Origin: an uncultured Rhodobacter sp.
Lineage (GTDB): Bacteria; Pseudomonadota; Alphaproteobacteria; Rhodobacterales; Rhodobacteraceae
Direction of reading: 5' to 3'
Length of the DNA stretch: 64,000 nt
NCBI GenBank assembly: GCA_945952585.1
Contig: CAMFII010000005.1
Coordinates: 1-64,000 of the forward strand
Below, in pieces: positions 4,339 to 64,000 of the stretch. Positions within the stretch are counted from its first letter, which is position 1, and every line of letters starts with the position of its first letter. The position numbers and the translations under genes were made by a program. A model generated the notes under the pieces. That model was not told where the DNA came from, searched no databases, and was given only the letters and a program-made list of their open reading frames with translations.

Positions 4339-4487
4339 GGCGTTTCGCCCGGCGCCCCGGCCGATGCGCTGACAGATGGGAGCGCTTGGCCTGGGTCCGG
4401 ATGCCGATGACACGGTCGGAATGCGGCTGGCGGTCCGATTGGCCCGAGGGTAGCTTTCCGGCACGATCGGCGCGGAAGGGGGGACGG

Positions 4488-6197
4488 ATGGGCGAAGCCG
4501 TCCTGGACCAGTACAGGCAGGCGGCTCGGCATATCCGGCCGCTGCTTGCAGTCCATCTGGTGCTTCGGCTGGTCGGGGTTGCCCTGCTTGCGCCAGTCGC
4601 GGTCTTGGCCATCGCCGAAGCGATGCACGCGACAGGCCGGACAGGGATCACCGACAAGGACATCGTCTGGTTCTTTTACCTGCTGCCGGGCACGCTGACG
4701 CTCTTCGCGATTGGGGCTTTGGCGGTGTTGGCCGCGGTCCTTGACGTCGCATTGATGTCGGTGGTGCTGGCCGCTGGCGAAACCCGGGCCTCCGGTGCCG
4801 TTGCGCTGGCCCTTGGGACGTTACTGAAGAGGCCGGGGCGGGTGATCGGGGTTTGCGGCGGCTTGGCCTTGCGCCTGATCTGGGGGGCGCTGCCGTATGT
4901 TCTCGGCCTGCTTCTGGTTCGATGGATCGGGCTGCGTCGGCACGAGATGGACTATTACCTGGTGACCTGGCCGCCAGAGTTCCTGCTGGCCCTGCTGACC
5001 GGCGCGGCACTGGCTGCCGGTCTGGTCCGGAAAGCGATCAGGTGCCTGTCACAGAACGGGATCGCGCTGCACCTCGCACTGTCGCGGCAGACCACAGTCC
5101 GGGGAAGCCTCGTCGCCAGTGGACGGAGCCTCGACCCTTTGCAACCGGCACTGCGCCGCGAGATCGCGCTTTGGGCAGGCGTCAAGCTCATCCTTGCCCT
5201 TGTGCTTACGGGCGGCATGGCAGTCTTGACCGGTACGCTGCCAGGCTTGTTCGGTGCGGATTTGCGGCTGGCGGCCGTAACAGTGGCCGGGCTGCTTCTC
5301 CTCTGGGCGGTGCTTGCAGCGGCGGTCGCGGCACTGTCGAACGGGGCGCTGGCGGGGCTTTTGCTCAAGGCTTGGGAAAGGGCTGGAGGCGAACCTCTTC
5401 CGCAGGACCGGTTCGGGATGAAAACCGGCGTGATCCTCCTGTTTGGGGCGGGACTTGCCTGTGCCGTTTCTGCCGCGATGGCCCCGCGGCTGATCCCGAC
5501 CTTCGTCCAGACGCCCGACATCCAGATCATCGCCCGACCTGCCGACGGGATTGCCGGCATCCGCGCTGCGATGGCGTCGGAGGCGGACTGGATCCTGATC
5601 GGGTTGCGTGCGGATATTGCGGGAGCGATCGTGCTTGCCAGTGGCGGGCAGGACGGCCAGGCGGACGTGCGGGATGTGCTGGAACTGGCGGATGCGGCGC
5701 AGGCGCCGCTGCTGTTCGATCTCGAGGCCGATGGCGACGGGGCCGGGCTTGTCGCGCAGTTGGCCGAGCTTGTGGATGAGACCGGGACAGGCGGGCAGGT
5801 CGCGGTGATGTCGTCCAGCATCGAGGTTCTGAACCGGATGCGGCTTCTGCGTCCTGGCTGGCGATCGGGGGCGCTGGTGCTTTGGCCGAGGGGTGATTTT
5901 TCGGGGCTTGATGTCGACTTCCTTGCGCTGAATTCCGGACAGGTGACGATGAAGCGGATCTGGCGGGCGAAATCGGCGGGGAAAGAGGTCTATGCTTGGC
6001 CGGCCGACCGGACGCTGGCGATCACGCGGGTCATCGAACAGGGGGTGAATGGCGTCATCACCGCCGATCCCGCCTTTGCCCGGCAAGTGGCCGAGGCCCA
6101 TAACCGCCTGCCCTTGGCCGACCGGCTGCTGCTGTGGCTGGCAGGCAGGCTGAACCCGAACGGTCTGCGCCTTGCCGAGCCCGGTTCAACCGACTGA
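4488..6197 (+). CDS. GDPD-membrane-domain protein with a degenerate phosphodiesterase domain
   Basis: A 569-residue protein. Roughly residues 1-335 form a multi-span membrane region resembling the glycerophosphodiester phosphodiesterase membrane domain. The rest resembles a GDPD barrel, with a recognisable tail VYAWPADRTLAITRVIEQGV and GVITADPAFARQVAE. The catalytic signature is missing: where the family has HRG there is RPADG, and the usual E-x-D is replaced in ADWILIGLR. It is therefore probably not an active phosphodiesterase. The ATG at 4488 follows a GGAAGGGGGGA ribosome site. In-frame codons further upstream lack one. Its role is unknown; a scaffold or lipid-binding function is possible. 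Confidence 0.75.
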   Translation: MGEAVLDQYRQAARHIRPLLAVHLVLRLVGVALLAPVAVLAIAEAMHATGRTGITDKDIVWFFYLLPGTLTLFAIGALAVLAAVLDVALMSVVLAAGETRASGAVALALGTLLKRPGRVIGVCGGLALRLIWGALPYVLGLLLVRWIGLRRHEMDYYLVTWPPEFLLALLTGAALAAGLVRKAIRCLSQNGIALHLALSRQTTVRGSLVASGRSLDPLQPALRREIALWAGVKLILALVLTGGMAVLTGTLPGLFGADLRLAAVTVAGLLLLWAVLAAAVAALSNGALAGLLLKAWERAGGEPLPQDRFGMKTGVILLFGAGLACAVSAAMAPRLIPTFVQTPDIQIIARPADGIAGIRAAMASEADWILIGLRADIAGAIVLASGGQDGQADVRDVLELADAAQAPLLFDLEADGDGAGLVAQLAELVDETGTGGQVAVMSSSIEVLNRMRLLRPGWRSGALVLWPRGDFSGLDVDFLALNSGQVTMKRIWRAKSAGKEVYAWPADRTLAITRVIEQGVNGVITADPAFARQVAEAHNRLPLADRLLLWLAGRLNPNGLRLAEPGSTD

Positions 6198-40449: not shown

Positions 40450-41763
40450 TCACACGAAGCGGAACATCTTCCGGGCGCGTTCGGAAAGGTCTTCCGGGAT
40501 GCCTGCCTGTGACGCATAGATGTCCCATTGCCGGGCCAGGCTCGCCACTTCCTCGAGTATGTCGAGTGTCCGCTTGGGCTTGAGGTCCGCCATCTTCCCG
40601 AACTGGACGAGGTCGTCCGGGGTGAAATTGTCGGCTTTCCCTGAAATGGTCATCTGGTGCTGCGACGTCCAGTTGCCCGCGGGGTTGTAGGCGTAAACGA
40701 CGTCATAGGCCGGCGCGAGGCGCCAGGCGCCGGACTTGTCCATCAGGAAGGACAGGTTCCGGACGTGATCATCCTGGTTGCGGATGACAACGTTGACGAT
40801 GGCGCGGCGGACTATCTGTTCCAGGGCAGCATTGCCGAGATCCAGCCGCCGTGCGGTGTCGAGGGCCTGTTCGTAGGAATAGGCCTGGGGGGCATTGAAG
40901 TCGAAATGGCGCATGCCGCCGAGAGACAGCATGTGCAGTTTCTCTCCGTCGCCGCCGTTTGCCGCGGGGACACGGTCGAACCGCCTGGTCATGAAATGCG
41001 CCCGGCCACCTTCGTGGTGCAACCTGGAGGGCATCATCTCCACGCCGGCCGCGGTCGCCAGCAGGTAGCAGGCATATTCGAGCCGGGTGAAGCCTTTCGG
41101 ATCGGACAGGCCATGGTCACCGGAAGCCGATACGCCGTCGAACTTCATCAGCCATTGAGTGAAGCCAGGGCCGGCCAGGAGTTGGCCGGAATGGAACTCG
41201 CCGGTCGTTTCGTTCCAGGCGAGGACTGCCTTCGCCCGGGCCCCGCCTGCGGATGTTCCGACCCTCAGGAGTTCCGTCAGGGCAGCCTTGTCATCCTTGC
41301 CATCGATGACGCCCGCCAGGGATTGGCGTTCCGCAAGGACGCGATTGGCGAGCTCCACCAGGGGAGCGATGTCGACGGTCGTCCCCGGATCGCGCTGCGG
41401 CCCGTCTGCCGGTTCGAACTCGAGGGCGCCCATGCCGCGCTTGCCCGTGTAGAGGAGGCGTTCGACGGGATCCATGCTGTCGGGAGACCGACCCTGCTCG
41501 GCGAGCCAGCGGTTGATCAGGAGGTTCCCGAACCGGTCTGGAAGGCTGTCGGACAGCAGGCCGGGCAGGCCGTGGAATGTTTCCCGCGGCAGGCTGGGGA
41601 AGTCATAGACGCCGGCCGCCAGCGGCAGGGTGAAGGGGGCAAGCTCGATCCGGGACCGGATGAAGGGCTGGGTATATTCGAAGGTTCCCAGGCCACGCTC
41701 CGCCGACCACAGCACGGAAGCGACATGTCGTCCCCAGAGATGGATTTGGGCCAGGGAAGTCAT
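40450..41763 (-). CDS. hipA: HipA-family serine/threonine kinase toxin
   Basis: A 437-residue HipA-type kinase. HipA toxins phosphorylate targets such as glutamyl-tRNA synthetase and cause dormancy. Key parts are the nucleotide loop GTSAGGARAKAVL (about 169-181), the catalytic NQDDHVRN (D331 and N336 matching the family's N-x-D-x-H-x-x-N), and APAYDVV (D354). It starts four bases inside hipB (ATGA), so the antitoxin is made first. All catalytic positions appear intact. The target is unknown. Confidence 0.92.
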   Translation of the reverse strand: MTSLAQIHLWGRHVASVLWSAERGLGTFEYTQPFIRSRIELAPFTLPLAAGVYDFPSLPRETFHGLPGLLSDSLPDRFGNLLINRWLAEQGRSPDSMDPVERLLYTGKRGMGALEFEPADGPQRDPGTTVDIAPLVELANRVLAERQSLAGVIDGKDDKAALTELLRVGTSAGGARAKAVLAWNETTGEFHSGQLLAGPGFTQWLMKFDGVSASGDHGLSDPKGFTRLEYACYLLATAAGVEMMPSRLHHEGGRAHFMTRRFDRVPAANGGDGEKLHMLSLGGMRHFDFNAPQAYSYEQALDTARRLDLGNAALEQIVRRAIVNVVIRNQDDHVRNLSFLMDKSGAWRLAPAYDVVYAYNPAGNWTSQHQMTISGKADNFTPDDLVQFGKMADLKPKRTLDILEEVASLARQWDIYASQAGIPEDLSERARKMFRFV

Positions 41764-42101
41764 TGGTCGTCACCCCAGGACCATGGCTCGTTTTCAGCTT
41801 CCCTGTTGGCCGGTCGGGCACGCTTTCTGGACTTGGAAGCGGGCCGCGGATCGAGCGGGCTCACGCGGGCGTCGGGCACGAGCGTTTCCAGGCGATCGTC
41901 CACACCGAGGGAGCGCAAGACCCTAATGAGGGTGTCGATCGTTCCGCCTTCGCCCGACTCGAGACGGTTGATCGTGCTTCTTGAAAGCCCGGTGTCGCTT
42001 GCCACGTCTTCCTGACGCATGTTCCTGGAAAGTCGGAATTTTTCGATCTGTTCGCCAAGTCTTTTCGCGGAGAGATGGACTGGTGTGGTGTGGTAACGCA
42101 T
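41760..42101 (-). CDS. hipB: HipB-type XRE-family antitoxin
   Basis: A 113-residue DNA-binding antitoxin with the helix-turn-helix MRQEDVASDTGLSRSTINRLESGEGGTIDTLIRVLRSLG (about residues 28-66, quoted as landmarks DVASDTGLSRSTINRLE). A basic tail (RPASKSRKRARPANRE) follows that could contact HipA or DNA. The ATG at 42101 is preferred over a longer frame. It represses its own operon via upstream repeats. Confidence 0.9.
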   Translation of the reverse strand: MRYHTTPVHLSAKRLGEQIEKFRLSRNMRQEDVASDTGLSRSTINRLESGEGGTIDTLIRVLRSLGVDDRLETLVPDARVSPLDPRPASKSRKRARPANREAENEPWSWGDDQ

Positions 42102-42135
42102 CGATCTTCGCTCATTAAAGGGCGGACAAGCGATA

Positions 42136-42193
42136 ATGTAGCGATAACGACACGCAAATACAAGCTGAGATATGTAGCGAAAACGAGACGCAA
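42136..42193 (-). promoter_or_regulatory. Two direct repeats in the hipBA promoter
   Basis: Two 22-base repeats start at 42136 and 42172 and differ at two positions. Their shared core is ATGTAGCGA followed by AACGA. The 36-base spacing is a little over three helical turns. They lie 35-92 bases upstream of hipB and are probable HipB operators. Confidence 0.65.
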
Positions 42194-42243
42194 GGCGTCT
42201 ACGGGGGAATAATGACGCCAAAACGATACATAGTGGTGTGACG

Positions 42244-44767: not shown

Positions 44768-45649
44768 ATGGGTGTGTCGGATGTCCGCAGGTTTTCCGGA
44801 GGACTCTTGGTCCAAGAAACGTCCAGCGGACTTCTGGTCCGTCAGGGCGACGAGGCCTATGTCGCAAGAAACTGGCGACTTTCTCCCCAAGTGGAAGAAC
44901 TGATTGAGACCGCAATCGGCGCTGGCCTTGGGTGCATGATCAGACAAGACCATCCGCGAAAGAATGCCCGTCTGCCCAACTCCCGCGGCGTCGTCTATCT
45001 CGCGTTTTCGCCTCACCCGAGCTTGCAATGGTCCCTCGCGATCGACACCGTAAATCAGAGGACTGGCGACTTCGGTTTTGGTGTTTTCAACGGAAAATAC
45101 CGCGCGCAATTTTCGGCTGCACAAATCCCATTCGACTTTGAGGGGAGAAACAAAGGGGCTGGCCATCTTGTCGTTCAGCGCCATCTTGTCCTGCCGACTC
45201 TGCGGAAGCTGGCGGGGTTCGATCACTCCGTCCTGGCGATGAACCGGACAGAACACAGTGGCGAAGGTTTCACGAGCGAGTATGTCATCCAACGTTCGAT
45301 CATCGTTAACTGGAAGCATACGCCATGGGGGGCAACACATCAGTTCATTCAGGATGAGTTTCCGGTCGACGGTGGCCTTACGTCGCGAAGAATAGACATT
45401 CTCGCTCGAGATCGCCGCACTGGAGATTGGCTGATCGTCGAACTCAAGCGCGCCGAGGCCAATATTTCGGCAGTCCACCAGGTCGAGAACTACCTCCTTG
45501 CACTCGGTCGCCGGGACGATTTCGCAAGCGGCACTCTGCACGGTGTGCTCGTAGCCGAACGGATTTCACCCGCTGCCAGGCAGCGAGCTGAAGATGCAGG
45601 CGTCGAACTTTTCGAGATTTCCTGGCCGATGACGCTGACACGTGTGTAA
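44768..45649 (+). CDS. NucS-like PD-(D/E)XK nuclease
   Basis: A 293-residue protein. The C-terminal third (about 195-285) has the NucS/DUF91-type nuclease core: SRRIDILARDRRTGDWLIVELKR with D210, E225 and K227, then AVHQVENYLLALG. NucS enzymes cut mismatched or branched DNA. The N-terminal 170 residues do not match the NucS N-domain that I know. The ATG at 44768 has GGAGGCGAG upstream. It converges with the giant helicase gene 320 bases away and may work with it. Confidence 0.75.
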   Translation: MGVSDVRRFSGGLLVQETSSGLLVRQGDEAYVARNWRLSPQVEELIETAIGAGLGCMIRQDHPRKNARLPNSRGVVYLAFSPHPSLQWSLAIDTVNQRTGDFGFGVFNGKYRAQFSAAQIPFDFEGRNKGAGHLVVQRHLVLPTLRKLAGFDHSVLAMNRTEHSGEGFTSEYVIQRSIIVNWKHTPWGATHQFIQDEFPVDGGLTSRRIDILARDRRTGDWLIVELKRAEANISAVHQVENYLLALGRRDDFASGTLHGVLVAERISPAARQRAEDAGVELFEISWPMTLTRV

Positions 45650-45969
45650 GGACCAATCTCCGGTCACAGCCGAGAAGTGTGAAAAATCAACAGGAACACC
45701 GTCGTCCGGAATCCGTTCTGTTACTGAAAAGTAAGGCCCCAATCTTGAATCGGGCGCTTCTTGACCGCGATCCGGGCGAGAGAGCCGGGTGGGGCAATCG
45801 GAAATATCTGGACCACGGTCACCTCGGTATTGAGGACTGCTCGAGCTCTCCAGGTGGGGCGACATGCAAGCCAGCCTGAAGCCACCCCGTCACATCCAGC
45901 GAATTTTTGGTCGTCCGACTTACCGGGATGGCCGCTGGCAGTCCGAGCACTTCCTCGCTTAGGGCCGCT
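45650..45969. other. Intergenic region between convergent genes
   Basis: 320 bases between the NucS-like stop and the helicase stop. A minus-strand frame around 45730-45860 (VTVVQIFPIAPPGSLARIAV) looks faintly coding but has no start or ribosome site. No terminator hairpin is obvious. Confidence 0.4.
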
Positions 45970-48900
45970 TCACTTTCGTCCGACCCGTCGGAACACAAGT
46001 TCGGGCAGGACCGTCTCCCACTCGTCGTGCTTGACGTAAGTCTGGTAGCGCTCTTCGTTGTCAGATTTGCGCCAGCGCACGACGGCACCCACCTTGCCTG
46101 ATACCAGATAAGTTCGCTCAGGAGGCGCCCAGTTCGCCGCCATACGGCCAAGCGGCCGGCCGCCGCGATCGAGGATCATCCATTTCCCCTCCCGCAATTC
46201 GAGCGACACCGGGTCATCGACCTGAGCCGCGGCGATCGCGGCATGGGTCGGGTTCGTCCTTGGCAGTCGGCCGGCATAGGATAGGTCGACAGACGTCAGA
46301 TCAGGCACCTGATACTGGTCTGGATCGGGAAGATCGAGCCGCTGCGCCATCTCGACTTTGCGGAGCATCTCACTGTCGCTGTCAGCAACCACGAAGGCAT
46401 GCTCCCCACTTGTCACGACCGCAAGGCTGCGGCGCGCGCGCGTCATCGCAACGTAGAACAAGCGTCGCGGGGCTTCACCGTCTTCGCCCTGCGAGATAAC
46501 TTTCCAGCCGCCGTTCAGAATGACCACATGGTCGAATTCGAGCCCTTTGGAGCGATGCGCAGTCAGCAACAGTAGGCCCCTTTGCGCACTGCGGATATCC
46601 TGCGACCATTCCGCCAGCCATTCGATAACATCGGGCACGGGCATGGTCTTCTTGCCCAACTCGCGTGCAAGATCCGCGATCCCCTCCGCAATGAGATCGA
46701 CCCAGCGGTTCGACGGCTGCTCGTTCAGTGAATCGAGAATATCTTGGATTGTGAGCATCGCTGCCGGGCGTTTGCGCAAGCTTGCAACAAGACGCTGCAT
46801 CTCGCGCAAGCGCCAGACGCTCGGAAGCCGTTCATTGGCCATTTCGACGGGAAGTTCGAGCTTTTCGGCATAGGCGCGGACTGCGCCAAGCCGTCGCCAG
46901 TCGCGAGAGATGATCGCGCAGCGCGCCCAGCTAAAGCCGGGATCAAGTCGTGAAATCCGCACCAGTTCATCCACCGCCGCCATTGCTTGTGCAGTGTCGT
47001 CGGCGGGCACATCAAGAAATTGCACACGGCCGTGCCCGACTGGGTCGTAGCCCGCCATTACGCCTCCGCCTGGATCGAGGCGGCGCATCTTGTCTACGGT
47101 GATCGCGTGTCCGACCTTCAGCCGACCTCGCGCAGGTTCGATGACCTGGTTGGCGGCGTCGATGATGTAACGGGTCGAGCGATAGTTCTCGATCAGAAAT
47201 TTGGGTTTGGCGCGGTAGTCTTCTTCGAATTGACGAATGAATGAGATCTTGGACCCTTTGAAGGCATAGATGTTCTGATCGTCGTCGCCCACGGCAAAAA
47301 GGCTCAGCCGCTGATCTGGATCTTCGAGCGAGCGCCCAGCCACGGCCGCGATCAGTGCGTATTCCACTTCGCCAATGTCCTGATATTCGTCCACCAGGAT
47401 CCAACGATAGCCCTGAATAAGCGCCTCACGCTGAGCTTCCGCTTCGGATCGGCTTAGCCCATCGCCATTGATCTGGCGCACCGCCTCAGCCACGATTCCG
47501 TCGAAGTCCCGCTGCTCAGTCGTGTCGCCGGCAAAGCTTGCCCCCACCAGCCGCATCGCAAGCGCGTGACAGGTGGACACGGTGACGCGCGCGGCGTCCT
47601 CGCCAACCAGATTGCGGAGACGGGCGCGAATTTCTGCCGCCGCATGGCGGTTGTAGGTCAGCACAAGGATTCCGTGCGGATCCTCGCGCTTGACGCGCAG
47701 GAGATAGGCGATGCGATGCACAAGCACACGGGTCTTGCCTGAACCGGGCCCTGCCAACACCAGCACGTTCGTCTCTTCGCGGTCATCCGCGACGATCTCC
47801 TGTTGAGTTGGATTGCCCAAGTCATCAACGATCTGCTTCCACGCCTTGCCGGTTGTCTGGCGGCGGATCTCGGTGCTGCGGCCAGGCATCCAGCGTTGCA
47901 GGAAGCGGTCCTGATCGAGTTTGAAGTAGTCTTCGGACAGACGCACAGCCTCGTCGATGTGTGCCAGCCCTTTTTCGGCGTAGGTGGCCATGACATGGGT
48001 CTGCAGGGTCTGCTCGCGATAGTGTTCTTCGAGTGGAAGGAAATCCTTCTTGGTAAAGCCGGTGTGCCCCGGTTTCAGATAGATGGTCATGGCCGAACGG
48101 AACACGGTCAGCCCTTTGCCGAGCGTCAGCACCTGCTGCTCATGCAGCCACAGCAGGGCGCGCTCCATGAGCTTGTTCATATCCTTCACACCGGAGGCTC
48201 CGACAAGGGCGTCCGCTCTCAGCGTCCCAAGCAGATCGCCGATCGTGGTCTCCATCTGAACATCCTTGCCACGCGCCCCTGAGGGAGCCTTGCCAATCAG
48301 AAACTCAAGGAGTTTCTCGGCCGCCATCCACCGGACTGAGGCGGTTTGCTCCACAACCCGCCACGAGCGTTGCAACACCACCTCACGCACCTTGCTGGAA
48401 AGCTTGCGCAAACGGATGTTTCCGTGTCCGCCGTCGCTGTCGCGCCCATCTCGCTCGATGCTGCGCAAGAGGCGGTCGAGGATATGTGGACTCGCATCCG
48501 CATGTCCGTCGTCGCGCAAGAGTTGGCTTGCCGCCGCCAGATCAAGAGGCGTGCGATCATCCACCTCTGCCTCGGGCGCCAGTTCGCGCATCCGCGAAAT
48601 AAGAGCCTTCTCCAACCGCATCGCTCGTGTCAGGCGCTGGCGCGACTGGTTTTCGACCCCGATATGCACGGCGACAGTGACAGCAATGTCGTTGCGCGCA
48701 ATGCCAAGGGCCTCGAGATCTGCCATCGCCTTGGTCAATGACCGGTGCGAAAGCCCGCTAATTCCGGTCAGTTCATCCGTCGATATGCCCTTGTCTGCGG
48801 GGGTGTTCATCACGTGCCGCACGATGGTCAGAAGCTGATCGCGGCGCGCCTTGGTGATCTCGGCCGACTTCAGTCGCCCCTCCGCCTCATCCAGTGTGCG

Positions 48901-51111
48901 GACCAGAAGTGACGAGGGAAACACCTGAACCCGGTTTTCCTCACGAGATACCAGCGCGGCCTCCTCAAGCCATGAAACGGCCGTCTTGACGCGCGTGTCA
49001 TCGGTGGCGCTGTCGCGCTCGAACTCACGATCCTTTTCTTCGCGCACAATCTCGCCCGGAGTCGCCACCACTACGCCGCTGTTGCGGGTATGCTCGTCCA
49101 TTCGGCGAAGCGCCTTGAGAATGGCGCCGATTTCATGCCGTTCGAGGCGTGATCGCGCTGTCAGGCTAAACTGTCGCTCGACGTCGTCGGGATGGTAAAG
49201 CAAAACGCATTCGGCAGGGGCCCGGTCGCGTCCGGCCCGTCCTGCTTCTTGCAAGTAGTTTTCCAGGGATCCCGGTATGTCGGCATGGACCACGAGACGG
49301 ATGTCTGGTTTGTCGATGCCCATGCCGAAGGCGTTCGTGGCCGCGATCACGCGCAAATCGCCCTGACGAAATCGCTCCTGCACGGCCTGCTTATCGTCAG
49401 CTGACAAGCCGGCGTGAAAATGTTCGGCGGCGAGGCCTTGGATCTTCAGAAAATCCGCGACGCGTTCGGTCTCCTTGCGGGTCGCGCAATAGATGACGGC
49501 TCCTGATCTGTCGTTTGGGGCCAGACGCTCGGTGACAGCCTGCAAGATATCCCCGAGCTTGCTTTCCTTCGACGTAGGCAGGACCGAGAAGGTCAGGTTG
49601 GTGCGCGTCGCGCCACCATCAAGCAGCTCCAACTCGATGCCAAGACGCTCGCGAAAATGTTCGGTGACGTCGCGGATGACCTCGGGTTTGGCCGTGGCCG
49701 TCAGGCACAGCACTGGTGCGGGCTTCGCGTCGCCGGAGAATTCACGGATGAAGCGCCCGACATAGCGATAGTCAGGTCGGAAGTCGTGCCCCCATTTCGA
49801 GACGCAATGCGCCTCATCCAACACCCAAAGCCCAATTTCGCGTTGTGCCAAGACCGAACGGACGGAGACGCTGCGCAACTGCTCGGGCGAGATCAGCACG
49901 ATCGCCGCCTGGCCCATCCGAACCCGATCCAGTGCATCCTGACGTTCGGGCATCGAGAGCATACCATTAATGGTCACTGCAGAAGAAATCCCCGCGCGCT
50001 CCATCCCTTGCACCTGATCGGCCATCAAGGCCACCAAAGGCGAAATGACCACCGTCAGCGACCCGATTTTATCATAAAGGCTGAGTGCGGGCACCTGATA
50101 GCAAACGGACTTGCCGGTGCCAGTGGGCAAGATGCCAAGCACGTTTACTTGCCGCATTGCGTCGGCGACGATGACCTCCTGCAACGGCCTTCCATCGCTA
50201 TGTGCCGGCTGAGGACGGTAGCCGTCGAAACCGAACCATCTCTGAAGCGTGCCTACAGGGTTGTTCATCTCCGAGCACCAGTCACATGAGCCATCGCCGC
50301 AGTTGATGTCCCGAAGGTCGCGCACGATCAGGGCAGCTTGGGGAAAGCTGGCCCGCACCCACGGCGGCATGACGGATTCTCCGCCCGAGACGGAAATCCA
50401 AGCAAGGGCGTAGGCCATCGGCCAACCCATCCTTGGGTCTGACAGTCCCTCGAGAATCTGAGACACCTGCGCGGCGCAGGCCCTACCAGTAAGTAGCGCC
50501 CGGATCGCCGAAAGCGCGGCGTTGCGATCCGGTTGAGCGGCCTTACGGATATGCTTGAAGAGCGCATCAAACCCTGCAGACCGGTCCGTGCGGGTAGCGA
50601 GGTAGTGATAGGCCACCAAGCTATCGGGCGACTGTGTCGCCATCTCGGCCAGAGCTTTGATCTGGTTCTCCAGCACTTCGAACACCAGCCGTGCATCTCG
50701 TTCGGGGTCGTTCACGTGTCCGGCCTGCAAACGCCCGTCCTGATAGTGCTTCACGAGGTGGTGGTAGGGGTTGCGTGGAAATGCCAGCGGATTGATCCAA
50801 AGCGTATCGATGGGCGCGGCCATTCGTGTTGCCAACCGCGGTCGCGCCGCCAGAAGATGCTCGATATCGTGCCGAAGGATATTGTGGCCAATGACATGTG
50901 GCGTCTTCGCAAGCGCTTTTTCCAATTGGTCGAGCGCCTGGTTGATCTTCCCTTTGGGCGCCACAACCGCCGGGCCATTTCCGAAACGCACAGCAGCCAT
51001 GTCAAAGAGTTCGGCCGTCTTTGGGTTGACCTCAAGATCAACCGAAAGACACTGCTCGAGCAAAGGCCCTTTGTCCTCGCCCCTCGATCTTAGGAAGTTC
51101 AGAAAAGCCAT
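45970..51111 (-). CDS. Giant DEDD exonuclease-RecQ-UvrD fusion helicase
   Basis: About 1,713 residues from ATG 51111. Residues 20-150 are DnaQ/DEDD-like (VDLEVNP with D25/E27; GHNILRHDIEHL; NDPERDARL with N134/D139). A cysteine cluster CGDGSCDWC lies near 271-279. Residues 300-650 are a RecQ helicase (LPTGTGKS, VLDEAHC, QEAGRAGRDR), followed by winged-helix/HRDC-like sequence. From about 1,100 to 1,600 there is a UvrD/Rep SF1 helicase (LAGPGSGKTR, LVDEYQDIGEV, GDDDQNIYAFKG, TAHRSKGLEF, YVAMTRARR). Two motors of opposite superfamilies plus a nuclease in one chain suggest processing of DNA ends or invading DNA. The neighbours are nucleases and toxins. Confidence 0.9.
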   Translation of the reverse strand: MAFLNFLRSRGEDKGPLLEQCLSVDLEVNPKTAELFDMAAVRFGNGPAVVAPKGKINQALDQLEKALAKTPHVIGHNILRHDIEHLLAARPRLATRMAAPIDTLWINPLAFPRNPYHHLVKHYQDGRLQAGHVNDPERDARLVFEVLENQIKALAEMATQSPDSLVAYHYLATRTDRSAGFDALFKHIRKAAQPDRNAALSAIRALLTGRACAAQVSQILEGLSDPRMGWPMAYALAWISVSGGESVMPPWVRASFPQAALIVRDLRDINCGDGSCDWCSEMNNPVGTLQRWFGFDGYRPQPAHSDGRPLQEVIVADAMRQVNVLGILPTGTGKSVCYQVPALSLYDKIGSLTVVISPLVALMADQVQGMERAGISSAVTINGMLSMPERQDALDRVRMGQAAIVLISPEQLRSVSVRSVLAQREIGLWVLDEAHCVSKWGHDFRPDYRYVGRFIREFSGDAKPAPVLCLTATAKPEVIRDVTEHFRERLGIELELLDGGATRTNLTFSVLPTSKESKLGDILQAVTERLAPNDRSGAVIYCATRKETERVADFLKIQGLAAEHFHAGLSADDKQAVQERFRQGDLRVIAATNAFGMGIDKPDIRLVVHADIPGSLENYLQEAGRAGRDRAPAECVLLYHPDDVERQFSLTARSRLERHEIGAILKALRRMDEHTRNSGVVVATPGEIVREEKDREFERDSATDDTRVKTAVSWLEEAALVSREENRVQVFPSSLLVRTLDEAEGRLKSAEITKARRDQLLTIVRHVMNTPADKGISTDELTGISGLSHRSLTKAMADLEALGIARNDIAVTVAVHIGVENQSRQRLTRAMRLEKALISRMRELAPEAEVDDRTPLDLAAASQLLRDDGHADASPHILDRLLRSIERDGRDSDGGHGNIRLRKLSSKVREVVLQRSWRVVEQTASVRWMAAEKLLEFLIGKAPSGARGKDVQMETTIGDLLGTLRADALVGASGVKDMNKLMERALLWLHEQQVLTLGKGLTVFRSAMTIYLKPGHTGFTKKDFLPLEEHYREQTLQTHVMATYAEKGLAHIDEAVRLSEDYFKLDQDRFLQRWMPGRSTEIRRQTTGKAWKQIVDDLGNPTQQEIVADDREETNVLVLAGPGSGKTRVLVHRIAYLLRVKREDPHGILVLTYNRHAAAEIRARLRNLVGEDAARVTVSTCHALAMRLVGASFAGDTTEQRDFDGIVAEAVRQINGDGLSRSEAEAQREALIQGYRWILVDEYQDIGEVEYALIAAVAGRSLEDPDQRLSLFAVGDDDQNIYAFKGSKISFIRQFEEDYRAKPKFLIENYRSTRYIIDAANQVIEPARGRLKVGHAITVDKMRRLDPGGGVMAGYDPVGHGRVQFLDVPADDTAQAMAAVDELVRISRLDPGFSWARCAIISRDWRRLGAVRAYAEKLELPVEMANERLPSVWRLREMQRLVASLRKRPAAMLTIQDILDSLNEQPSNRWVDLIAEGIADLARELGKKTMPVPDVIEWLAEWSQDIRSAQRGLLLLTAHRSKGLEFDHVVILNGGWKVISQGEDGEAPRRLFYVAMTRARRSLAVVTSGEHAFVVADSDSEMLRKVEMAQRLDLPDPDQYQVPDLTSVDLSYAGRLPRTNPTHAAIAAAQVDDPVSLELREGKWMILDRGGRPLGRMAANWAPPERTYLVSGKVGAVVRWRKSDNEERYQTYVKHDEWETVLPELVFRRVGRK

Positions 51112-51120
51112 AAAGCCCAA

Positions 51121-51518
51121 GGCAATAATGGATCACTATTTGACCTTAAGGTGCCAAAACCTGCACTGCAATAGAGCAACTCTGGCTCGGGAACCGGGGA
51201 CAATCGCAACCGGAAGCGAATTCGGAATTGGTCAGATCAATCGCGCCGGGCGTGCTGGACGTTGACTTCAGTTGGCCCCGCGGCGATGCCTTCCGTTCCA
51301 GAGCCACATGGACGCTGCTCCTGTTTCTGGCGTAGCATGTTGGCTGTCCACCGGGCCGATCGTGCGCCAAGACTGAAATCGGATAATCCCAGAACTGGGC
51401 AGGCCAACTTGGAGTAGGAAATCCTCCTGCCAACACAAAACATTCAGCCGCGGGCTGGCAGGCAGGTATGATCCTGCAAGGAAGGGACTTCGGTGATTGA
51501 CCTCGATTTGGAGACAGG
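51121..51518. other. Divergent promoter region
   Basis: About 400 bases between the divergent helicase and HEPN-LOTUS genes, with moderately lower GC. No clear repeat or operator stands out. It should hold both promoters. Confidence 0.5.
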
Positions 51519-52370
51519 TTGACCAAAGTGACTGGGATTTTTGGCTATCTGCCCGGCCCACAGCAAAATGAAATCCAAAGGCTGTATGGTCAGTGCCTGC
51601 TTCACCTCCAGGCCTACGAGCGGCTGATGAAGGCGATTGTCGCGGAGCATCGCCTCATTGGTGAGACTGACGAGCTGGAGGCTATTCGGGGCAACCAGGC
51701 TGCGGAGACGGGCCGGAAGACGCTCGGGATCTTGGCTGGCGAGATGACGAGCTCGTTTCTCTTGCCTGAAGGGTCCGAACCTGAGAGCTTCAGGCCGGAA
51801 AACCTGCCTTCATTTGGTCTCCATATGCGGCTCATCCTGCCGAGGGAGGCATTCGAGCAGGCTGAGATGGACCTTCGTGAAGTCGTGGCTCTGCGTAATC
51901 GACTGGTCCATCACTTCCTTGAGGAGCACGAACTCGTCACACCAGATGGCCGTCTCAAGGCGCAGGAGTGCCTCTTGAAAGCTCAGGATCGCGTGGAGCA
52001 GGCTTTTGAGGAATTGCGCGGCTGGGCCGTGGCCCTGAATGACAGCAAGAAGGCCCTTGCTGAACTTTTGTCCTCTCCCGACGTTCTCGACCTTGTCACG
52101 GAAGGGGAGTCTTCATGGGAGAACTCCGAGGCGGTGAAGGCTCTGCGTCAAGCGGCCGCGGAGCTTTCGGTCGGCGGCTGGACAGAAGTCAGCGCGGCGG
52201 TCGGCTGGATTGGGGCTCATTTCCCGAATGCACGGCCTGCAGCCTATGGCTGTAGGACCTGGCGCCAGGTAATTCATGAGTCAGGCTTGTTCGAGCTGAA
52301 GGCTCGGAGCATTCAAGCAGGCCGCCGCCGATTTTATCGACCGCGAACCCGCTTGGTCGCGGAGCCTTGA
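51519..52370 (+). CDS. HEPN plus OST-HTH/LOTUS domain protein
   Basis: A 283-residue protein. The first 160 residues are helical and contain VALRNRLVHHF, a canonical HEPN ribonuclease motif (R126-N4-H131). The C-terminal part (about 213-276: GWTEVSAAVGWIGAHF, YGCRTWRQVIHESGLFEL, RRRFYRPR) fits the OST-HTH/LOTUS RNA-binding fold. An RNA-binding domain joined to a probable RNase suggests an RNA-targeting effector. The start is probably TTG at 51519 (GGAGACAGG upstream); GTG at 51528 is possible. It is divergent from the giant helicase. Confidence 0.75.
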   Translation: MTKVTGIFGYLPGPQQNEIQRLYGQCLLHLQAYERLMKAIVAEHRLIGETDELEAIRGNQAAETGRKTLGILAGEMTSSFLLPEGSEPESFRPENLPSFGLHMRLILPREAFEQAEMDLREVVALRNRLVHHFLEEHELVTPDGRLKAQECLLKAQDRVEQAFEELRGWAVALNDSKKALAELLSSPDVLDLVTEGESSWENSEAVKALRQAAAELSVGGWTEVSAAVGWIGAHFPNARPAAYGCRTWRQVIHESGLFELKARSIQAGRRRFYRPRTRLVAEP

Positions 52371-52845: not shown

Positions 52846-53967
52846 TCAGTCCGGGATTGCTGCCGCGAGACGGACTACGTCGTCAATCGACTGGCGAACG
52901 ATTGCGAAGGGCAGACCCTTGCAGATCAGCAGTGTCGCGCATTGGTTCTTCGCCTCCAGCTCGTCATGAGAACTGGTGCCGTTCGGGCCGGGAACCCAAA
53001 GAGGGAGAGAAATGTCTTCGATCGCATTGCGGGTGTAAGCGCGGGCCGCGTTGTCGACGGCGTATCCTTCTCGGACCCACTCGCCCAGAAGGAATTGCAG
53101 GATCTTGGCAATGGCCCGGTATTTGAGAAATTCTTCCTCGAAGCAATCTTCGGGAGGCGCGCCCACCTGGATCCCGCCATTGCCGCGGAGAAGGATCGGG
53201 TCGGCTGAGGACTGCATGAAGGCAGTGCCGACAAGGCCGGCGAGATGACGGAGATGTGCCTGTTCCGTTTCGCTCCAGCTCTTGAGGTGGCGCAGCCCGG
53301 TGCGGGCATAGGTCTCGAGGATCTCCCAGGAACATGTGCCATCGACATCGGAGCTGTTCGCGTCGATCCAATGCTGCGTGGTCCTGATCCGGGCGGCTCG
53401 GTCGAGGCACCCGCGGGACACCACCACCACTTCCTTCCCTGGACCCTGTGTTGCGAAATCGGTCAGCCGGAGCGGGTTGCGGTATCCCTCCGGAAGCAGA
53501 AAGTTGTCCCCGCCAGCCCGAATGGTCGTGACCCCCTTCTCAACAAAAAGTTCGGGTTCCGGAAAAGCGTGCACCGGATTGCGCTCGAGTTCACGGCTCC
53601 AGAGCTGCTGGCTTCCCCCTCTGCCGGTCAGATGGGCGAAGTTGAGGCCTGATCTTTTCGGGAGGGCCTGTCCTTTTCCGATCTTGGCGACGACGGAATT
53701 CTCGAAAACCATCGCGATGACTGGCGGAAATTCCGGTCCCGCGTCACCGGTCCAGTGACGGACCACCAGGGCCGGATTGGCATGATCAACCACGAGCATG
53801 CACATGAGCGTCGTGATTGCGTCGTCGGACAGATGATAGGTCTCGACGGCTTTGGCAATCCCGGACGCGATCCAGTCATGGTCCTCCATGAGGCCGGACT
53901 CGAGATCGCACCAGTCATTCAGGTCTCCGATTTCCCGGGCAACTTCCAGAAGGCGATAGGGCTGCAC
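52846..53967 (-). CDS. Protein of unknown function, 373 residues
   Basis: The start is GTG at 53967, in frame and six bases behind GGAGG; a longer frame with TTG has no ribosome site. The protein is soluble, without signal peptide or membrane segment. Landmarks are VVDHANPALVVRHWTGD, EKGVTTIRAGGDNFLLPEGY and LWVPGPNGTSSHDELEAKNQ. I see no nucleotide-binding or nuclease motif and no known family. It lies alone beside the IS3 relic in the island. Confidence 0.6.
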   Translation of the reverse strand: MQPYRLLEVAREIGDLNDWCDLESGLMEDHDWIASGIAKAVETYHLSDDAITTLMCMLVVDHANPALVVRHWTGDAGPEFPPVIAMVFENSVVAKIGKGQALPKRSGLNFAHLTGRGGSQQLWSRELERNPVHAFPEPELFVEKGVTTIRAGGDNFLLPEGYRNPLRLTDFATQGPGKEVVVVSRGCLDRAARIRTTQHWIDANSSDVDGTCSWEILETYARTGLRHLKSWSETEQAHLRHLAGLVGTAFMQSSADPILLRGNGGIQVGAPPEDCFEEEFLKYRAIAKILQFLLGEWVREGYAVDNAARAYTRNAIEDISLPLWVPGPNGTSSHDELEAKNQCATLLICKGLPFAIVRQSIDDVVRLAAAIPD

Positions 53968-54706
53968 CAAGGACCTCCGGGCAGGGATGTGCAAGGACTT
54001 GTAGGACAATTGTTTTTCAGCGGGAAGATGCAGGCTTCTGTTGCCAGGTGCCTGCGACCCCGCCTGCCCGGGCTCGACCGGTCAGGACGAGTGCCAAACA
54101 TTTCGCGTGTGCAAATGCGCGCGCCGCTGTGCCCGGGGATTGCGGCCTCGTTGTGGACAATGCAATTTTGGCCCCAGAACGCTTCTCCAGCCTGCATAGA
54201 GGAGGAGCTTGGTTTCGCCTGTAGTGGACATGGACCAGTTCGCTTTCCAGCAACTCAATTCACAAACTACTGGAGGCCTCCCACCCATTTTTCAACAAGC
54301 GAGCGATGCCGACTACAAGACCTTCGTTCCCGCTTTAAAGTTCCATTATTGACAATCCACATCAACTACTTAAGGCACCTAATTGCGATGCTTTCCCGGC
54401 GGGTCGCCTACTTTCTCTCATTGGAATGCTGGCCCAGGCTGGGAGGGTTGGTCCGCTTGTAGAACTGCGCATCTACCTCAACCTGTCGCTTCCCGAGCTT
54501 GAGATCGCACGGGGCCTCACTCGCGGGCTCTTGGTCTTGGAGATCGCCGTGGCGCGGGCTGTAAGTATCACCATTAATCACAATTGGATACCGTTTCTTC
54601 TCGAAAAGCCTGGCGGAGTGAGCTGTGGCAAAACCATCACCTGTTCTCTGCCATGGTCGGGACTACGAGTTTGCATTGGCGGTCCGTGCCGGCCACACCG
54701 AGCCCG
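53968..54706. other. Long intergenic stretch
   Basis: About 740 bases with no supported gene. Several ORFs cross it but none has a ribosome site or motif. A lower-GC patch occurs around 54210-54450. It may hold the promoter of the 373-residue gene and degraded DNA. Confidence 0.45.
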
Positions 54707-59212: not shown

Positions 59213-60241
59213 TCAGCGACCAGAGATAGACGCTGCCCAGCTGCGGATTTCAGCCTGATGCGTGACGAACCATGCACGCAATGCGCGGGTTGCGGCAATG
59301 CCAGTCCTCACCGCTTCGATCTGGTCATCAAAGGGAATGAAATGATCCAGCGTCGGCGTATCAACCACCAGCATCAGACCCGAGCGTCCGGTTCTGCGCT
59401 TGTTGACATTGGGAATGGCGCGGATGGCGGTGCCAGCGAGACCTGCCGAGATCCGGGCCGCCAGTTCGTTGAAATGGTCACCCCAAGTGTAGAAATTGAT
59501 GTTGGCATTTGCCTCGCGCAGTTGATGCACGATTCGCATCTGAGGCAGAAAGGGCCAGGCTGGGAGGCTTTCTGGGCCGAAGATCATCGTCACGCTGTCG
59601 GCAGCACTTTCGCGCAGCATCGATGGACCGGGGATCAGCTCGGGAGCCATCTCGCGCAAGAGATCGACATAGCGGGTTGTGAATTCCCGTTTTGCCGGGT
59701 GAATGACCTGAGTATAGCCTCGTCGCTGCTTTTCGATCGCCTGGCGCATCATCCGGGCACGGTGCGAAATGCGAGCAGACAACTCGCCCGTCTCATGCGC
59801 CGCTCGGGTCTCGAAAAAGCCCGCGAGGCTCTCATAGCTGATCACATGGTCGAAACCGGCGGCGAAAACGGTGTTCTCCGCGCGGTAGGATTGCGGGCAG
59901 GTCAGGATTGTGCGGACCAGATGATGGCTTGCGGCCTGTTCCTTTGCCTCGGCTCGGTATGATTCCGCCTGGCGCGGCTGCTCAGATGTGTCGAGCTTGT
60001 TCTCGATCAGCAAAAGCACTTCCCCGGCAGCGGTCCGCATGCGGACAGAGATGTCGATCTCGCGCCGGCTGTAGATGCGGCGCACCGAGTGCAGGACCGA
60101 GGCGCGCTGGAAGCCCAGTTCGGCAAGGCCAATGGATCTCAGGATCGCCGCCGCGAAGATGGGAGAAGCAGCAAACTCCTCAACCAACAGCAGGTCGATG
60201 TCTCGCTCGGTCGCATGGGTCAGGACAGGAATATCATTCAT
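59213..60241 (-). CDS. PD-(D/E)XK nuclease superfamily protein
   Basis: A 342-residue protein. The N-terminal third has the core REIDISVRMRTAAGEVLLLIENK with D63, E80 and K82, followed by RQAESYRAEA. This matches PD-(D/E)XK superfamily proteins often found beside restriction systems. The C-terminal part (from about 210) is a separate domain of unknown type. Its start overlaps the stop of a small membrane-protein ORF (ATGA), and the type III restriction operon lies just upstream on the same strand. Confidence 0.75.
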   Translation of the reverse strand: MNDIPVLTHATERDIDLLLVEEFAASPIFAAAILRSIGLAELGFQRASVLHSVRRIYSRREIDISVRMRTAAGEVLLLIENKLDTSEQPRQAESYRAEAKEQAASHHLVRTILTCPQSYRAENTVFAAGFDHVISYESLAGFFETRAAHETGELSARISHRARMMRQAIEKQRRGYTQVIHPAKREFTTRYVDLLREMAPELIPGPSMLRESAADSVTMIFGPESLPAWPFLPQMRIVHQLREANANINFYTWGDHFNELAARISAGLAGTAIRAIPNVNKRRTGRSGLMLVVDTPTLDHFIPFDDQIEAVRTGIAATRALRAWFVTHQAEIRSWAASISGR

Positions 60242-60794: not shown

Positions 60795-63629
60795 TCAGGA
60801 GGCCAGGGCGATGTCCTTCTCTGCGCCGCCAAGCTCGAATCGTCCCCGCAGGTCGGCGTCGGCCTCGCGCCGATACGCCGAAGCCAGCCCGTTGACCGTG
60901 GCATTCTCAAGCACGGCCGTCTCGGGCACCAGCAGATAGGACCAGGGTTTCTCGTCAGGAAGCCCGGCCCGGGCCTGGGTGGCGATGAAGGCCCAAAGCG
61001 CGGCGGCCTCCGCCTTGCGCAGGACCACGGCATCGGCCATGTCGCTGGTGCGCTTCGTTTCGATGATCAGCTTCTCGGTCTCGGTCTCCACCACGAAATC
61101 GGGCTGGTAGGGATGCCCGTCCGTGTCGAAGATCTTGAACTGGTTCGGACCAGGTTTCATCCAAAGGCGAACCGTAGGATCCCGCTCCAGGAGCACCGCC
61201 ATCTTTCGCTCGGTGTCGGAATCGAACTTGGCCATGGCGTAACAGCCCTTTTGGAACCCACTGAAGATGAAGCGCTTGATCTCGCTCAACCGTTCAGGCG
61301 CTTGCCGGAAGTCCCGCATAACGCCAGGACCGCTGCCGTCGTAGGTCTGGGGACGCAACTGATCGAATGCCGCATTGACCGTGACCCGATAGCCGGTTTG
61401 TCCGCGCCACATGTTCCCCTTCATGGACGCAAAGATGGCATCCGACATCTGCCGGGCATGACCTTGCAGGACGCTGCGTAGCTTTTCCTCCTCCGGAAAC
61501 TTGCCCCGGAAATGCGTCACCACCTGACCCGCCAGATCGTAGAGGATGGCGGCATGCGCGTCATAGTCAATCTCGGGGAAGTCCACGAGCCGGGCGACGA
61601 TATAGTCCTCGAGACGCGCGGGCATTTCTCCCCCCGCTTCGCCGCTGATCGCCCGACGATCCTCGGTTCGCAGGACCTGGATCAGCAGCTCCCGGGACAG
61701 CGGCTGATAGTTCCAGGTCTTCAGATCCAGTTGAAAGGACTTGAAGCCGAAGGCAACTTGCTCCTTCGGCGTGATGGTCAGGGTTGGGATGGCGATGGTC
61801 CGTTCGATCAACTGCTTGCAGACCTCCTCGACGACAGCGACGGCCTGCTCAGGCGTTACCGATGCGAACAACCCCTCCTGCATCTTTTGCGCTGTGAGCG
61901 CGACTTCGACAATGTGTTGCCTAACCTTCGGATCCTGCAGGTCCTTGATCGATGAGACCTGCTTGCTGACTTCGGGCAGAACCACGCCGAGGACCGTCTT
62001 TGCCAGTTTGACCTCTTCGGGCTTCTGGAAGCGGAAGGGCGGGGCAACAGGGGCAAGACCGGGCGCGGCCGTCATCGGAGGCTGGCCATGCGGCACCGGC
62101 GCGGAGCTGACGGCGGCCGACTGCGCCTCGGCCTGCTGAACCATCTGGTCGAGGATGGAGGGCGCCGTCACGATAATGGGCTTCGTTGCCGGCACATCTC
62201 CGCCGTCGCCGATCGTCACCGTCTTCAGCTTGCGGGTGACGCCATTGTCCTCCTTGGCGCGTTCGATCAGGTCGTTGAACCGGTCATGGGCGATGACGGT
62301 CAACTGATCCACCTCGGCGACGCCGGTGCGCTTACCGTAAGGCAGGCGCAACCCGCGACCCAGGGTCTGCTCGGTCAGGATGTCCGACGCCGAGGCGCGC
62401 AGAGGCACGATGGTGAAGAGGTTGGAGACATCCCATCCCTCCTTCAGCTTGTTGACATGGATAACGATGTCCGTGTCGCCGCCCTTTTCGATGTTGAGCA
62501 GGCGCTGCGCATTCTCGTCGCTTTCCTCCCCGGTAAGCTTCGAGTGGATCTCGATGACTCGACCCTTGTAGCGCCCCTCGAAGAACTGATCGGATTCGAT
62601 GAAGTCGCGCACCTGCCGTGCGTGGGTGGTGTCCTGGGTCACGACCAGCATGAAGGGCCGAACCACGCGCACCCCGTTCTGTCGCGCATAGGTTTCCAGG
62701 GCGACCTTCACATGCTCGTGGTAGTTGATTCCATCCTCGAGCTTGATCCGTTCGAGCTTTGCCTCGTCCACAGATTTTGGGTCGAAGTTCGCCCTGGTGC
62801 CGACGGCAGGCTCCTTGACGTAATTGTCCTCCATGGCCTCGGGCAGGTCGTAGCGGTAGACGACGTTCCGGAACTCCTGCGACTTCGCGCCGACCGACTT
62901 GGGCGTGGCCGTGACCTCCAGCCCCAGGATCGGTTTCAGCTCGGCAATTGCCCGGGCGCCCGCTGAACCGCGGTAGCGGTGCGCTTCGTCCATGAGGAGC
63001 ACGAGATCATCCAGTTCGGACAGGTAGCTGAAATAGCTGTCGCCAATATACTCCTGCAGGCGCTTGATCCGGGGGGCATTGCCGCCGCGGACCTCGGAAT
63101 TGATCTTCGAGATGTTGAATATGTTGATGATCGCGCCCTCACGACCGAAGAAATCGGTGCCGCGCACGCCCCGTCCTTCCTCGTAGTTCTCGGCGTTGAC
63201 GATGAGCGGCGGATTGTGGGCGAAGGCCTCGATGCCGCGGAAGACATATTTCGGACTGGTCGGCTGAAAGTCGGCAAGCAGCTTTTCGTAAATCGTCAGG
63301 TTCGGGGCCAGAACGAAGAAGTTACGGCTCTTGCCGATCATGTAGAGGTAGCTGATGAAGGCCCCCATCAGCCGGGTCTTGCCGACACCGGTGGCGAGCG
63401 CGAAGCAGATCGACGGGAAGTCGCGTTCGAAATCCTCGAACCTCGCATCATCAAGCTTGCCATAGACCTCACGCACGGCAGCGCGGGCGGCTTCGACATC
63501 GGTATCCTTGCTGGGAGCGATCAGGTCGACGATGTCATCGAGGCGCCGCAGCGCCTCGGTCTGCGGCTTGCGCAGGGACAGGCGCTGAGCGATCTGCGTG
63601 ACGGCGCGCTTGGGGTCAATCTCCTTCAT
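60795..63629 (-). CDS. Type III restriction-modification Res-like helicase-nuclease
   Basis: A 944-residue protein. It has a Walker A ALATGVGKTRLMGAF near residue 80, LVLLMDEAHRYRG, a helicase motif VI EQTLGRGLRLPYG, and a C-terminal PD-(D/E)XK core (YQPDFVVETETEKLIIETKR; D, E and K visible). This fits the restriction subunit of type III systems, which cuts DNA after ATP-driven movement. The ATG at 63629 lies two bases after the Mod stop. All ATPase motifs look intact. Confidence 0.88.
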   Translation of the reverse strand: MKEIDPKRAVTQIAQRLSLRKPQTEALRRLDDIVDLIAPSKDTDVEAARAAVREVYGKLDDARFEDFERDFPSICFALATGVGKTRLMGAFISYLYMIGKSRNFFVLAPNLTIYEKLLADFQPTSPKYVFRGIEAFAHNPPLIVNAENYEEGRGVRGTDFFGREGAIINIFNISKINSEVRGGNAPRIKRLQEYIGDSYFSYLSELDDLVLLMDEAHRYRGSAGARAIAELKPILGLEVTATPKSVGAKSQEFRNVVYRYDLPEAMEDNYVKEPAVGTRANFDPKSVDEAKLERIKLEDGINYHEHVKVALETYARQNGVRVVRPFMLVVTQDTTHARQVRDFIESDQFFEGRYKGRVIEIHSKLTGEESDENAQRLLNIEKGGDTDIVIHVNKLKEGWDVSNLFTIVPLRASASDILTEQTLGRGLRLPYGKRTGVAEVDQLTVIAHDRFNDLIERAKEDNGVTRKLKTVTIGDGGDVPATKPIIVTAPSILDQMVQQAEAQSAAVSSAPVPHGQPPMTAAPGLAPVAPPFRFQKPEEVKLAKTVLGVVLPEVSKQVSSIKDLQDPKVRQHIVEVALTAQKMQEGLFASVTPEQAVAVVEEVCKQLIERTIAIPTLTITPKEQVAFGFKSFQLDLKTWNYQPLSRELLIQVLRTEDRRAISGEAGGEMPARLEDYIVARLVDFPEIDYDAHAAILYDLAGQVVTHFRGKFPEEEKLRSVLQGHARQMSDAIFASMKGNMWRGQTGYRVTVNAAFDQLRPQTYDGSGPGVMRDFRQAPERLSEIKRFIFSGFQKGCYAMAKFDSDTERKMAVLLERDPTVRLWMKPGPNQFKIFDTDGHPYQPDFVVETETEKLIIETKRTSDMADAVVLRKAEAAALWAFIATQARAGLPDEKPWSYLLVPETAVLENATVNGLASAYRREADADLRGRFELGGAEKDIALAS

Positions 63630-63631
63630 GC

Positions 63632-64000
63632 TCAAGACTCCGGCGTATCAGCAAAGAGGTCACCAGTGGAGGTGTCGATCTTGCCCTTACCCTCAGTTCG
63701 AGAGGGCGACACATCGTCATCGCCCTCATCCTCCGACATCATCGGCAGGGCCTCGATCTTCAGCGAGTAGTCGTCTTTGCCCCATTCGCAGCTGCTCAGA
63801 ACCGCTTGCGGGATCTTCCGGAGGGTCAGATTTGCGAGCTTCTCTGCGCCGGACTCGTAAGCCGTGCAGCAGATGAGCAAGCTCCGGCCGTCACCGACTT
63901 CATCCGAGATGGCGCGAAGCTGGTCGAAAGTCAGGCTGTTCGTGGTGACGAAGATGAACGCACTTTCCGAGGAATGACCCTGCATCCAGTAGTGTTCGGG
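63632..64000 (-). CDS. Type III DNA methyltransferase (Mod), C-terminal part, runs off the window
   Basis: Open frame without a start to the window edge. The visible end has SLTFDQLRAISDEVGDGRSLL, LANLTLRKIPQAVLSSCEWG and KDDYSLKIEALP, typical of the C-terminal part of type III-like adenine methyltransferases next to their Res gene. Catalytic motifs would be further upstream, outside the window. The acidic tail precedes the stop two bases before res. Confidence 0.75.
   Translation of the reverse strand, partial: PEHYWMQGHSSESAFIFVTTNSLTFDQLRAISDEVGDGRSLLICCTAYESGAEKLANLTLRKIPQAVLSSCEWGKDDYSLKIEALPMMSEDEGDDDVSPSRTEGKGKIDTSTGDLFADTPES

Follow-up and report, generated by a model that had tools for sequence, protein, structure and literature searches.

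The stretch of DNA analysed here, referred to as the window, covers 64,000 nucleotides of an uncultured Rhodobacter sp. (contig CAMFII010000005.1, positions 1 to 64,000). Between positions 44,768 and 52,370 lie three adjacent genes, which we term A, B and C (Table 1). The strands alternate over the three, with A on the plus strand, B on the minus strand and C on the plus strand. A and B are therefore convergent and B and C divergent, and because of this orientation the three genes cannot form a single transcript. The initial annotation had placed the locus among toxin-antitoxin and restriction genes, and these are indeed present as a zeta/ParD-like pair, a HipA/HTH pair and a type III restriction subunit. 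The 387-amino-acid gene beyond C gave no match in Pfam, NCBIfam or PADLOC.

Table 1. Features of the locus and of its surroundings, in window coordinates.
Feature	Position	Strand	Details
HipA-like gene with HTH gene	40450-42221		
Zeta-type toxin-like kinase with ParD-like antitoxin gene	43151-44133		
Gene A, NucS_C-type nuclease	44768-45649	+	PF01939, E 1.8e-13
Gene B, giant protein	45970-51111	-	about 1,713 aa
B, C-terminal domain	45973-46395	-	aligned across relatives
B, UvrD motor	46396-47814	-	residues 1103-1575
B, middle region	47836-49053	-	residues 690-1095, tandem winged-helix-like
B, RecQ motor	49096-50202	-	residues 307-675
B, CxxxxCxxC module	50275-50301	-	C274, C279, C282
B, DEDD 3'-5' exonuclease domain	50641-51051	-	residues about 24-160
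Gene C, HEPN-LOTUS protein	51519-52370	+	OST-HTH 52113-52310; motif 51894-51911
387-aa gene	52846-54009	opposite to adjoining C	
PD-(D/E)XK_4 gene	59213-60241		
Type III restriction-type helicase-nuclease subunit	60795-63635		ResIII and RE_endonuc

The open frame of B extends from a TTG at 51120, with the ATG at 51111 being the likelier start. From its amino-terminus the protein comprises a DEDD exonuclease, a Cys module, a RecQ motor, a winged-helix-like middle, a UvrD motor and a C-terminal domain. A single chain uniting an exonuclease-like domain with two helicases had been proposed for this gene, and the architecture holds, with the RecQ and UvrD motors identified by profile matches and the DEDD domain by its predicted fold and acidic residues. 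The first motor belongs to the RecQ family, scoring 305.7 bits on TIGR00614 against a cut-off of 219.8, and the second is UvrD/Rep-like of superfamily 1, matching PF00580 (2.8e-42, 145.7 bits) and PF13361 (2.6e-13, 50.6 bits). The exonuclease domain was not detected by Pfam. Its assignment to the DEDD superfamily comes from residues D28, E30, D85 and D142, the four acidic ligands of metal in the three Exo motifs, together with an RNase H-like predicted fold, which resembles ExoI, Orn, the T7 polymerase exonuclease and DinG. The C-terminal domain gave no significant Pfam match, and the middle region, being specific to the family, was used as the probe in our surveys.

The catalytic residues of B are conserved. 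Those of all three enzymes are present in 62 to 65 of the 65 intact GTDB relatives, every absence being a gap of the alignment. K337, D435, E436 and R631 of the RecQ motor, which include the Walker A and DEAH residues, are found in all 65, as are K1129, D1244, E1245 and R1561 of the UvrD motor. In relatives from viral contigs the active-site residues are retained in six of six, except for N137 and D142, which are retained in five. In the DEDDh and DEDDy subgroups the fifth catalytic residue is a His or Tyr in motif ExoIII. The equivalent position in B, set by its spacing to D142, is occupied by Asn137, as it is throughout the 65 intact relatives, and this places B outside both subgroups. With Asn replacing the His or Tyr, exonuclease activity of B is not certain. 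The Cys module, which may form a zinc site, is kept in all 65 of the intact GTDB relatives and in all six of the viral-contig relatives; in one alignment of relatives it is absent from the row for Aliarcobacter and from the three for cyanobacteria.

Individual parts of B recur in several well-studied proteins. WRN likewise joins a 3'-5' DEDD exonuclease to a RecQ helicase in one chain, and we found no evidence for a common origin of the two fusions. WRN is a DEDDy enzyme that has RQC and HRDC domains and is without a UvrD motor. The DinG protein of S. aureus fuses a DEDDh exonuclease to a helicase motor of the XPD type, whereas B carries RecQ and UvrD motors and a large winged-helix-like middle. 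RecBCD and AddAB process DNA ends as helicase-nucleases, with a nuclease fold unlike the DEDD fold of B; the likeness to B, which is one chain, is of function only. Compared with canonical bacterial RecQ, the motor of B reaches 354.6 bits on TIGR01389, below the equivalog cut-off of 640.2. A RecQ-like core is also shared with DpdF and PsyrT of defence systems (375 and 308 bits, respectively), in matches restricted to that core, and B was rejected as the DpdF of a Dpd system on its score of 209.8 on NF041063, where the equivalog cut-off is 550. The UvrD-type motor is held in common with Gabija GajB (models up to 188 bits) and with UvrD-PcrA. B stays below the UvrD/PcrA equivalog cut-offs. Gabija is defined by the OLD-family ATPase-nuclease GajA encoded beside GajB, and clustering of neighbour families showed no recurring partner gene for B. 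Within PADLOC-DB (2023) the best 25 of 90 matches to B are confined to the RecQ or UvrD core, with no fusion model among those listed. No description of an exonuclease-RecQ-UvrD chain appeared among the matches listed from a mostly open-licence collection of papers.

B is an accessory gene. Canonical RecQ scored over its cut-off in 48 of 48 genomes carrying B, of which five have a broken copy; this set comprised the window's own genome and 47 of 80 GTDB relatives, hand-picked mostly for long contigs. We could therefore discard the idea that B is the housekeeping RecQ or its replacement. GTDB contigs contain at least 532 stretches that match, and 80 of these were taken into the analysis. Together with the patchy distribution of B and neighbours that match defence models far more often than those of recQ, both described below, this context supports the view that the giant is a defence gene and not a housekeeping one. 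Among 73 fully covered copies, 64 have a full-length frame and nine do not, none of the nine exceeding 1,550 amino acids. The broken copies carry stops, frameshifts, deletions or truncations and fit a dispensable gene; since they come mostly from draft genomes, sequencing errors are also possible.

The gene is also mobile. Of 42 matching plasmid records, 22 cover at least 80% of B; the remaining 20 cover less, many of them the RecQ core only. The named plasmid carriers span four phyla and include Paracoccus, Rhizobium, Cereibacter, Microvirga, Sulfitobacter, Thiothrix and Allochromatium, as well as Croceicoccus, Nostoc, Scytonema, Pseudanabaena, Bacteroides and Aliarcobacter. We rejected B as an ordinary phage gene, as none of 50,697 phage records covers 80% of it and 21 match at all. 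Relatives were found on eight viral contigs. In a tree of 77 rows, the eight Hyphomicrobiales sequences need six label changes, which points to repeated transfer. A number as low arose in 13 of 500 shuffles, so the order labels are still somewhat clustered on the tree and vertical descent has contributed too. These counts are read with the viral-contig rows and one contig, L047, put under Rhodobacterales by default, and with two long branches (L017 and L102) placed unsurely. L047 is a GTDB contig titled Exiguobacterium profundum (MAG) whose B copy is nested among Rhodobacterales, and the name of the record is probably wrong.

We then considered the company that B keeps. Clustering of the open reading frames around 95 loci yielded no neighbour family in more than 12, and a recurring partner gene was discarded on this basis. 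The 12-locus family resembles ABC-transporter ATPases in the one member inspected by eye. Seven of the 95 loci have a type IV restriction-like helicase (one member checked by profile), and families present in five loci comprise a profile-checked WYL regulator and, on inspection by eye, P-type ATPases and a small gene of methyltransferase-like type. The last of these is the only methyltransferase-like family noticed among the neighbours, and in four of its five loci it adjoins the type IV restriction-like helicase.

To compare these surroundings with a control, we took from each genome the open reading frames of at least 150 amino acids closest to B and those closest to canonical recQ. Control regions were obtained from 40 of the 48 genomes and neighbours were compared in 39, with 112 of 148 case frames and 115 of 156 control frames drawn at random within a size limit. 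At E <= 1e-15, about 14 of the 112 B neighbours matched PADLOC-DB, against one of the 115 recQ neighbours (Fisher p 3e-4; 5e-3 if only 10 are counted). The B neighbours match 78 PADLOC models and the controls one model, once. The figure of about 14 was counted from family tallies with 25 of the 78 families shown, and assumes that no protein falls into two groups, as was borne out for four matching proteins that we checked; a fifth protein checked had no match. The tally consists of Mokosh/Hhe-type (5), PbeA-type including type IV restriction (4), WYL (2), type III restriction (1), type II methylase (1) and DarG (1). Most sampled B neighbours have no match among the families shown, several of the models that were matched describe helicases, and some of the loci are closely related. 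In particular, the Hhe-like counts are not all independent because the near-identical relatives L073 and L075 are both included. Pfam tallies agree with this picture, with DUF4011, MTES_1575 and ResIII near B, and MFS transporters and two-component genes near recQ.

Several single loci are worth describing. On the Allochromatium plasmid a type I restriction set lies one gene from B, and on the Thiothrix plasmid CRISPR type I-D genes lie about 4 kb away. In four loci B adjoins a gene for an Hhe / PDC-S37-like DUF4011 helicase that also has a nuclease domain of the Vsr type, MTES_1575 (L073:3966-9845, L075:3957-9845, L083:3960-9845 and L025:3968-9481). In L073 and L075 this gene ends at the start of the B open frame on the same strand, and it is possible that the Hhe-like gene and B form a two-gene combination.

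By guilt by association, the genomic context of B suggests a role in defence. The reading that we favour, and hold to be somewhat more likely than not, is that B acts by itself as a defence enzyme directed at DNA, encoded by one gene and resembling WRN, DinG and RecBCD in function. B would engage DNA that invades or over-replicates, loading on single strands at its forks, gaps or ends. The known relatives of RecQ and UvrD are 3'-5' translocases, and the two motors of B would open and strip the DNA while the DEDD domain would digest its 3' ends. The foreign molecule would thus be unwound and shortened by a single chain, a task for which WRN, the staphylococcal DinG and RecBCD have fewer or separate parts. 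We infer the order of these steps and their polarity, and likewise that B would stop phages or plasmids and spare self DNA. The more far-reaching proposal, that B alone recognises, unwinds and digests foreign DNA as an undescribed one-gene immune system, a bacterial defensive counterpart of WRN borne by plasmids in at least four phyla, is put forward tentatively, at somewhat less than even weight.

The main rival is that B serves repair. Its domain content is that of repair enzymes and its carriage on plasmids could also fit plasmid maintenance or repair. On the Aliarcobacter plasmid B adjoins the partition genes, and in Bacteroides it lies within 6 kb of genes for single-stranded DNA-binding proteins. 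B would then be an accessory enzyme of DNA repair or replication restart, an analogue of WRN or DinG that travels with mobile DNA and helps to maintain large plasmids or islands, with no immune purpose. We regard this as rather unlikely, given the enrichment of defence genes around B, its restriction to 34 of 228 related genomes and the loss of the full frame in nine of the 73 copies. In addition, the neighbours in the 95 loci include no recurring family of replication or partition genes.

A different possibility is that B senses DNA damage or ends and then kills or stalls the cell by uncontrolled degradation of all DNA, as abortive infection in one chain, where the favoured reading has it clear invading DNA selectively. 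That no self-marking partner recurs widely beside B, the methyltransferase-like family reaching five of the 95 loci, would agree with such indiscriminate degradation. The full-length frame in 64 of 73 copies and the lack of any recurring antitoxin-like family beside B in the 95 loci speak against it, and we consider it improbable.

The remaining question is what A and C contribute. For A, the proposed NucS-like nuclease core is recovered as a match to the NucS C-terminal domain (Table 1). The match is confined to that domain, leaving the N-terminal half without assignment, and A scores 49.5 and 39.6 bits on the NucS equivalogs, below their cut-offs of 216 and 252. We found no plasmid match and no viral-contig relative of A. 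The HEPN-type motif and LOTUS domain described for C are likewise upheld. PF12872 identifies the OST-HTH/LOTUS domain (27.3 bits, cut-off 23.8), and the motif R126-N-x-L-V-H131, which we take to be the HEPN RNase signature, is invariant in seven aligned sequences, the window's own and six relatives. The putative HEPN assignment is drawn from this motif, scores on the Pfam HEPN models lying under the cut-off. No paper on a bacterial HEPN-LOTUS protein was found in a mostly open-licence collection.

The initial annotation had joined the three genes into one abortive-infection design. Our search for the neighbourhood in other genomes does not support this, as the genes mostly occur independently of one another. 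Among 106 loci around B relatives (80 GTDB, 8 plasmid, 8 viral-contig and 10 short), a relative of A is present in one (L043) and a relative of C in two (L023 and L063, within 5 kb of B). A family survey of 228 genomes, one per genus and including the window's own, found B in 34, A in six and C in five, with all three together in the window's own genome only; B is absent from three of the six A genomes. With the own genome excluded, A is found in five genomes and B in 33, with two shared (Fisher p 0.15), and C in four, one by a weak match, with two shared with B (Fisher p 0.10). In both pairs these small numbers lean positive and are not significant, and co-location in DNA rich in defence genes would produce such a tendency. 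In a survey of the class (n=385) the B middle region occurs in 10 genomes including the window's own, C in the own genome only, and A as a strong match in the own genome only with six weak matches elsewhere. Across the 48 B genomes, again with the own genome, C is present in five and A is clear in two, partial in one and weak in three. A also adjoins B, in an arrangement other than that of the window, in L043 and G564, which are probably the same species, and in G385 it lies about 22 kb from B.

On five plasmids that we inspected, C stands without A or B alongside, and the same is true of viral contigs. One abortive-infection locus in which B senses DNA and the HEPN-LOTUS protein cuts RNA would draw on the adjacency in the window, on the three loci with A or C near B, on the HEPN-type motif and on the positive lean in co-occurrence, and we judge it very improbable given the alternating strands, the non-significant association, the absence of A, C or both from 33 of the 34 genomes with B in the family survey and the solitary copies of C. 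A and C look like independent neighbours of B, unrelated residents of a defence-rich stretch. Nine IMG/VR viral contigs carry HEPN-LOTUS relatives of C, and we inspected the surroundings in three. In L173, C (4054-4923) begins at the end of a metalloprotease/regulator-like gene and is followed after 0.8 kb by an integrase/invertase-like gene. The C relative of L175 (3889-4881) precedes a recombinase-type gene, and that of L178 (5956-6810) has a tail tape-measure gene at a distance of 3 kb. Judged by sequence and context, C may be a separate RNase defence gene borne by prophages and plasmids.

If B is indeed a defence enzyme that works alone, then a common gene without a name, found in 34 of 228 genera sampled from the family, in at least 532 GTDB stretches and on plasmids of four phyla, would be a complete immune system in one polypeptide. 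This would explain why some plasmid genes are annotated simply as 'RecQ helicase' although the host has a RecQ of its own. B would also offer a simple model for how an exonuclease is coordinated with two helicases of different superfamilies, a problem usually studied in WRN or RecBCD.
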